Assembly: GCA_030446715.1 (NCBI GenBank)
Contig: JAUJMU010000003.1
Location: 393,630 to 457,629 of the forward strand
Direction of reading: 5' to 3'
Origin: Cytophagales bacterium
Lineage (GTDB): Bacteria; Bacteroidota; Bacteroidia; Cytophagales; 172606-1
DNA length: 64,000 bases
Made by a program: the position numbers and the translations under genes. A model generated the notes under the pieces. It worked only from the letters and a program-made list of their open reading frames with translations, was not told where the DNA came from and ran no database searches. Every line of letters begins with the position of its first letter. Position 1 is the first letter of the stretch. Of the stretch, positions 30,945 to 47,040 are shown one piece after another.

Positions 30945-30983
30945 AGCAAAAACCCTGAACTAAGGGAGTTCAGGGTTTTTGCT
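30945..30983 (-). terminator. Intrinsic terminator of the bifunctional nuclease gene
   Basis: A perfect 17-bp stem (30945-30961 with 30967-30983, loop AAGGG) lies 15 bp beyond the stop of the leftward gene. In that direction the descending arm ends in GGGTTTTTGCTTTTC. Confidence 0.85.
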
Positions 30984-33538: not shown

Positions 33539-33569
33539 CAAATATAAGTAACCCACCTTTTTCCCCAAA
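33539..33569 (-). promoter_or_regulatory. Consensus Bacteroidota promoter of etfB-etfA
   Basis: On the minus strand TTTG (33569-33566), a 19-base spacer and TATATTTG (33546-33539) match the TTTG-N19-TAnnTTTG consensus exactly. The predicted start is about 105 bases before the etfB ATG. Confidence 0.7.
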
Positions 33570-33685
33570 GAAATAACATTTTTTATCCAAAAGTGAATAG
33601 TGACTGCTTATTGAACTTTTTCTTTAAAATTATTTACACCAGCCAAACCAGTAAGCAATACCCGTATAGAAGAACGCTTATTCAA

Positions 33686-33838
33686 TAGACCTGCGGCGAA
33701 ATAAATCCCTGTAAAACAGCAAGTTAAGATAAATGCGGGTGCATATTTATTAGAAATGATACTGCAAATCACGTGTTTGAGTAGAAATCTATTGATTTAT
33801 ATCGTTGATTATCAGCGGTTTATTTCGCCGCAGGTCTA
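33686..33838. mobile_element. MITE-like element with perfect 20-bp terminal inverted repeats
   Basis: TAGACCTGCGGCGAAATAAA (33686-33705) is repeated exactly as its reverse complement at 33819-33838. The 113-bp interior is AT-rich and encodes nothing. If the element proper runs GACC...GGTC (33688-33836), it is flanked by TA on both sides, as for IS630/Tc1-type TA insertion. No transposase is in the window, so it would be non-autonomous. It lies in the 553-bp gene-free spacer between etfB and the 144-aa gene, which otherwise holds only the etf promoter and a possible promoter for the right-hand gene. Confidence 0.65.
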
Positions 33839-33883
33839 ATGTTACCCTAATGTTTTTTTCAGGTGAAATTTATCCCACCCGGG

Positions 33884-38928: not shown

Positions 38929-39825
38929 CTAATAAAGTTCATCAAGCGAAACCAACAGGTACTTTCTGATTGACCTGTATGCACTGAAGGTGCCAATAAA
39001 TATGCCCATCAGACAGAGACCACCCATCAGCAACAACAGGGAGGGCAAATCACGAAGTGCTTCAAGCCCCTCCACCTGTGATTCAGCGTACAGCAGTAAC
39101 CCTGACAACAGGACTGATGCAAGAATGCCGCCGGTCAGACCGTGTAAAGCTGCCCGCAAAAGAAATGGTCTTTGGATAAACCATGGGGTTGCACCAACTA
39201 ATTGCATACTTCTGATCAGGAAGCGCTGCGAAAACATTGCCAGCTTGATTGTATTATTGATCAGCAATGAAATGGTGAGCAGCAATACAGTTGCAAAACC
39301 GACCATCAGCAAGGTTATTTTTACAATATTCCGGTTTATTTCCTCCGCGAGATTTTCCACGTACGAAGCTTCAAATACCCCTGGTATTTTTTCAAGGTCC
39401 AGTTTTATCAGCTTCATTTGCCTTGAATCATAAAATTCCGGTTTTATCCTGATCAGCAGCGCATCCCTGAGTGGATTCTCTCCCAGGAAAGCGGTATGAT
39501 CCTCTCCTGTATCTTTGATAAAATCCTTTTCTGCTTCCTCTTTGGAAATAAACCGGACTACCGGATTATTGCCTTCCCTTTGCAGATATGATCTGGTTTC
39601 CACGGCCTGAACAATTTTCTCAACTTCAGGACCTGCTACGTATTTATCAAGGTAAACCTGTATCTCAATATTGTTCCTGATGGAAGCAGACAGCCGGGCA
39701 GCATACAGTACCATCAGACTACAAAGGCCGATTACAAAAAGAGCCATTGTTATACTGAACACAACCGTAGCGAACGGATAACTCCCGAGTTTCTTTTTGC
39801 GCCGGTATTTTTTTAAAGTCTGCAA
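38929..39825 (-). CDS. ftsX: Cell-division permease FtsX
   Basis: The 298-aa protein has a cytoplasmic basic start (KKYRRKKKLGSYPFATVVFS), a first helix, and a periplasmic domain with IEIQVYLDKYVAGPEVEKIV and NPLRDALLIRIKPEF. Three C-terminal helices complete the FtsX topology. With FtsE (not in the window) it forms an ABC-like complex that activates peptidoglycan hydrolases at the septum. First gene of the ftsX-DUF3098-uppP-truB-ribF cluster. Confidence 0.93.
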   Translation of the reverse strand: MQTLKKYRRKKKLGSYPFATVVFSITMALFVIGLCSLMVLYAARLSASIRNNIEIQVYLDKYVAGPEVEKIVQAVETRSYLQREGNNPVVRFISKEEAEKDFIKDTGEDHTAFLGENPLRDALLIRIKPEFYDSRQMKLIKLDLEKIPGVFEASYVENLAEEINRNIVKITLLMVGFATVLLLTISLLINNTIKLAMFSQRFLIRSMQLVGATPWFIQRPFLLRAALHGLTGGILASVLLSGLLLYAESQVEGLEALRDLPSLLLLMGGLCLMGIFIGTFSAYRSIRKYLLVSLDELY

Positions 39826-46985: not shown

Positions 46986-47040
46986 CCGGCAAAACAGAAA
47001 AGGCGGGACTTCTGAAGTCTCACCTTTTCTGTTTTGCCGG
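46986..47040. terminator. Bidirectional terminator between dsbD and the transglutaminase-like gene
   Basis: An 18-bp perfect stem (46986-47003 with 47023-47040) extends inward with partial pairing. It lies 12 bp after dsbD and 15 bp after the repaired stop of the convergent gene. Confidence 0.85.

Follow-up and report, generated by a model that had tools for sequence, protein, structure and literature searches.

A 64,000-nucleotide stretch of a Cytophagales bacterium genome (the window) holds, in the intergenic region from which etfB (minus strand) and a 144-amino-acid open reading frame (ORF; plus strand) diverge, two perfect 20-bp inverted arms (33686-33705 and 33819-33838) with 113 bp between them. 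Is this structure a terminator or an RNA belonging to the locus, or is it a mobile element, and, if mobile, what kind of transposase inserted it? An earlier note, made from the sequence alone, had described the arms and read them as the ends of a MITE. The arms themselves are confirmed: when the window was simulated 30 times with a first-order Markov model, perfect arms within 600 bp reached at most 15 bp. The ETF domain PF01012 was found in etfB and in the adjacent gene, and the 144-amino-acid ORF beside the element had no Pfam match. Our answer, which we hold with high confidence, is that the locus carries a 151-bp non-autonomous MITE whose insertion we attribute to a transposase of the IS5 family (DDE_Tnp_4; probably of the ISL2 group) supplied in trans.

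The element proper occupies 151 bp (window 33687-33837, AGACCTGCGG...CCGCAGGTCT) between direct repeats of 3 bp, AAT. These repeats (33684-33686 and 33838-33840), and not the element, supply the T and the A at the outer tips of the arms; the inverted arms therefore stand as first described, but the 20-mer does not stand as the element's end, since it includes one base of each AAT. The 151 bp, with exact 18-bp ends, hold no transposase frame. The parts of the locus are as follows, G001 being a congener whose IS is described below.

33684-33686, no strand: left target-site duplication AAT, the same as 33838-33840; an exact 3-bp repeat is found here in five of the six full copies
33687-33704, plus strand: left terminal inverted repeat of 18 bp (AGACCTGCGGCGAAATAA), which matches both ends of the G001 IS at 16 of 18 positions; over the two ends together, 35 of 36 positions are invariant in the six full copies
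33705-33819, no strand: AT-rich core of 115 bp without coding sequence, not long enough to encode a transposase
33709-33719, no strand: subterminal palindrome CTGTAAAACAG, in the same register as TTGTATTACAG at the 3' end of the G001 IS
33805-33815, no strand: subterminal imperfect palindrome TTGATTATCAG near the right end; TGATTATCA is invariant across the six full copies
33820-33837, minus strand: right terminal inverted repeat, 18 bp, the exact complement of the left repeat
33838-33840, no strand: right target-site duplication AAT, the same as the left one

The genome from which the window comes (25 contigs, 6.4 Mb) contains six full copies of the element and one that is cut by a contig end, seven sites in all. 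Every full copy is exactly 151 bp long and runs from AGACC to GGTCT. Aligned in register, the six are 74-100% identical in pairs, with no gap anywhere, and 97 of the 151 columns are invariant: 35 of 36 at the two ends, against 62 of 115 inside. Near-invariant ends around a diverged core suggest that the copies may come from a lineage in which an IS5-type transposase maintained mobility, and are not dead copies that decay in place. The window copy is identical to that at C2:71317 over all 151 bp while the duplications of the two differ, which points to an apparently recent movement. The seventh copy is broken by the end of contig C5 (L139, G000:C5, end 152718), where the repeat probably broke the assembly.

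With up to one mismatch, the 18-bp end occurs 13 times in this genome, always within the seven copies. A looser pattern, the end 17-mer with up to three mismatches, gave 42 matches as against 14 for a control pattern, and 13 of the 42 lie at copies; seven of the 29 others were inspected, and all seven fall inside stop-to-stop frames of at least 131 amino acids.

Two of the six full copies interrupt genes, as seen when the flanks are joined minus one duplication and the continuity of the frame is read. At C2:71317 the joined flanks give a continuous frame with PAS domains of at least 777 amino acids (to the edge of the locus), and at C13:258674 they give a continuous 248-amino-acid DDE transposase frame; the element breaks both. 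No gene is evidently interrupted by the remaining four. The copies at L012:1502-1652 and L010:1506-1656 adjoin or sit in other transposase genes, a nested-insertion pattern that is common in IS-rich genomes.

A site without the element is found in G001, where the two flanks of the C2:570822 copy are matched at 75% identity by contig C409, which lacks the element in between. The C2:570822 region is a tandem duplication in its own genome (74% identity), so the G001 site is homologous, as an orthologue or a paralogue. Dispersed copies, 3-bp duplications, two interrupted genes, this homologous site and a full-size G001 IS with the same ends together bear out the reading of the locus as a MITE.

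The enzyme that the earlier note had proposed is another matter. IS630/Tc1-type MITEs are short inverted-repeat elements that lack coding capacity and duplicate TA, and GACC...GGTC is indeed bordered by TA at left and right in four full copies, the window copy among them. The flanks fail as a rule across the copies, however: at C2:71317 they are TA and TT around an exact TAT/TAT repeat, and at C1:10311 they are TA and TC. What is repeated exactly in five of the six full copies is 3 bp, namely AAT (window), TAT (C2:71317), AAT, ATT and AGT, and ATT/ATT and AGT/AGT likewise fit a 3-bp target; only C1:10311, the most diverged full copy, has flanks without a matching repeat (AAT/CTT). Because TA is not the duplicated target, and because the IS that shares the ends encodes an IS5-type transposase, we see almost no chance that an IS630/Tc1-type enzyme inserted the element. 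Four of the five duplications fit A-N-T, the exception being TAT. The ISL2 group of IS5 duplicates A-N-T, and on this ground the IS5-type transposase to which we attribute the insertions probably belongs to that group.

The IS with matching ends lies on contig C13 of G001. It is 1033 bp long and ends in AGACCTGCGGGAAAATAAGT and AGACCTGCGGGAAAATAAAG, each of which agrees with the MITE end at 16 of 18 positions; the 18 other ISs compared reach only 6-12 of 18. An A8 run divides its transposase into two pieces in two frames, which match HTH_Tnp_4 (3.6e-12) and DDE_Tnp_4 (1.3e-18). Among NCBIfam models, those of the IS5 family are matched by the second piece, with scores under the whole-protein cut-offs, and by the first piece not at all. 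Similarity extends inside the terminal repeat at one end: positions 19-42 of the consensus of one MITE end agree in register with the 3' end of the IS at 16 of 24 positions, the best of 76 comparisons, a value reached in 2 of 200,000 shuffles. When gaps were allowed, shuffling of the subterminal part gave a weaker result: the best of the 76 comparisons stood at 2 of 300 shuffles, and an IS that looks unrelated (G028) came next at 4 of 300. The palindrome at 33709-33719 is a possible second protein-binding site, as judged from its sequence and register; nothing like it is present at the 5' end of the G001 IS. We regard this IS as a candidate partner type whose activity is putative, since it is flanked by AAT and ATT, which do not repeat exactly, and since its transposase is split over two frames.

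At E 1e-5, 29 of the 194 genomes contain a match to the G001 transposase piece. Nineteen related ISs were delimited, and 15 of them have exact 3-bp repeats, all AAT or ATT, although this is not a blind count because the ISs were chosen from candidate pairs, and their boundaries placed, with 3-bp flank agreement in view; four, including the G001 IS, have no exact repeat. Some further pairs were left out of the 19 (for example, in L205, L208 and L223), as were regions in which IS ends could not be set (for example, L214, L220, L225, L227 and L228). Sixteen of the 19 (L229:1511-2543 and 15 others) contain a run of 6-23 A that lies 515-582 bp into the element, at which the transposase is often split over two frames; a copy in the window's own genome, L213, has 23 A. 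Such runs suggest programmed frameshifting or slippage, or else slippage-driven decay.

The earlier note had held that the element would need a partner from elsewhere than the window, and a search for PF01609 agrees with this, giving no match in the window span. The regions around all 40 PF01609 matches of the 25-contig assembly contain no IS with both MITE-like ends, and five delimited ISs of the same type in this genome agree with the MITE end at only 6-8 of 18 positions; those whose ends could not be set, such as C21:16089 and C11:37280, lie outside the five. The search for an IS with the same ends, which the earlier note had also recommended, therefore succeeded in G001 and failed in the element's own assembly, where the cognate IS is absent from the assembly, has been lost or was never present. 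Because no IS with matching ends was found there, we infer the source of the transposase in this genome.

The inverted repeat might instead be a transcription terminator or a structured RNA conserved at the locus. It is intergenic, and positions 33680-33844 folded as single-stranded RNA give -56.7 kcal/mol (z -6.99); a fold of this strength is, however, expected of a long inverted repeat. RNAalifold gives a covariation term of -0.05, with a two-sided change in 1 of 46 pairs. In Rfam the only matches are to two models of miRNA hairpins, and both score far under the gathering threshold. The structure occurs in several copies in varied contexts, two of them inside genes, whereas at the syntenic position in G001 (C105) and in a second genome, G002 (C147), the etfB intergenic region matches the end at 11 of 18 positions at most. 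Measured between the closest blocks that align, the G001 region is shorter (297 versus 491 bp) and that of G002 is of similar size (541 versus 548 bp). Whole-genome searches found no copy in G001 and only two in G002, both elsewhere. A single sequence conserved at this locus, the outcome that the earlier note had named as fatal to its own reading, is thus the reverse of what is seen, and a conserved terminator or RNA is extremely improbable.

Nor do we think it at all likely that a MITE has been put to host use at some sites, for instance by altering transcription between etfB and its divergent neighbour. The element does sit in the divergent intergenic region, and a Bacteroidetes-type promoter-like match lies upstream of etfB (33539-33569, minus strand), outside the element; the motif has two matches in the window against 1.09 expected, which makes it a weak signal. 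G001 and G002, however, manage without the element at the etfB locus, and our analyses gave no sign of a host function. Most likely the element has none there. It is an ordinary small parasitic DNA element that is not mobile by itself and most likely borrows the enzyme of a known type of IS.

Its distribution is narrow. Among the 194 genomes searched, the 18-bp end with up to one mismatch occurs in two, its own (13 times) and G002 (the MAG Cytophagales bacterium YX2bin28; four times), always at known copies, and the reversed control pattern gave none among the matches listed. When all candidates were scored over whole genomes, G002 yielded two copies of the element and G001 yielded none. Both G002 copies occupy the same sites as two of the seven own-genome copies, within rearranged stretches that are at least 99% identical, whereas the etfB locus is only 69-78% alike in the two genomes; for this reason the G002 copies are shared through recent transfer or mixed binning and are not independent insertions. 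The shared stretches are those of L135/L136 and L137/L138, and one of the two adjoins stretches that are 89-90% identical.

A scan for the 18-mer in 84,980 species found it on two contigs of the YX2bin28 MAG and otherwise only on six contigs from other taxa, once each. The six resemble chance matches: with even base composition, 257 Gb read on two strands should contain some 7.5 matches to an 18-mer. In none of the six does a second match exceed 15 of 18 within the 8 kb examined. Weak partial matches of 26-38 bp in G030, G102 and G140 were inspected and are not this element. Viral contigs and plasmids gave no match, and the element is not named in the titles or abstract openings of the literature searched, which was covered in part.

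Amoebophilus asiaticus belongs to the same order as the source organism. Its ISCaa2 and ISCaa3 are described as IS5-family, ISL2-group ISs, about 0.9 kb long, whose transposase spans two ORFs and for which a -1 frameshift is predicted (PMC3196728). They resemble the candidate partner IS of G001 in family and in a transposase encoded in two ORFs. They differ from our element in being full ISs and not miniature; the table in PMC3196728 gives no direct repeats for the two, and the group of the G001-type ISs is itself only probable. Miniature like our element are BrickBuilt and MITEPgRS/MITE464 of Porphyromonas gingivalis, which are described as sharing ends with the IS5-family ISPg1, ISPg9 and ISPg4 (PMC4596501). 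As presented there, they too are short, non-coding elements of a Bacteroidetes genome with terminal repeats that match IS5-family ISs, and their ends (GAGACC.../GAGACT...) resemble AGACCTGCGG (PMC4596501). Their sequence is another one, and BrickBuilt contains a minisatellite and had duplications of variable length, in contrast to the uniform 151 bp of our six full copies and the 3-bp duplications of five (PMC4596501). IS5-derived MITEs are therefore already known in Bacteroidetes, and this element adds another.

The simplest account of the copies is that an IS5-type transposase, supplied in trans, would bind the 18-bp ends (AGACCTGCGGCGAAATAA), with the subterminal palindromes as putative further binding sites. 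By recognizing the AGACCTGCGG ends, it would cut the element out (cut-and-paste) or copy it, and would insert it at short A/T-rich targets, mostly A-N-T, that are duplicated as 3 bp. One odd feature is the gap-free length of copies that differ by up to 26%. The six full copies, up to about 26% different, without a single indel and with 35 of 36 terminal positions unchanged, could mean that the transposition machinery holds the element strictly to one length, an idea that we consider unlikely. If it were true, palindromes equidistant from both ends, one of them common to the G001 IS, would suggest a fixed-spacing architecture for end synapsis in IS5-type elements.

Its ends and target rule are known and a candidate partner IS has been identified, so that the element can serve as a clean Cytophagales example of an IS5-type MITE, of use in annotation and in separating MITE hairpins from terminators. 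Four other perfect inverted pairs of at least 14 bp are present in the window, with arms of 23 bp (176-232), 18 bp (46986-47040), 17 bp (30945-30983) and 14 bp (39330-39557). The 23-, 18- and 17-bp pairs are short-loop hairpins that adjoin gene ends and resemble ordinary terminators.
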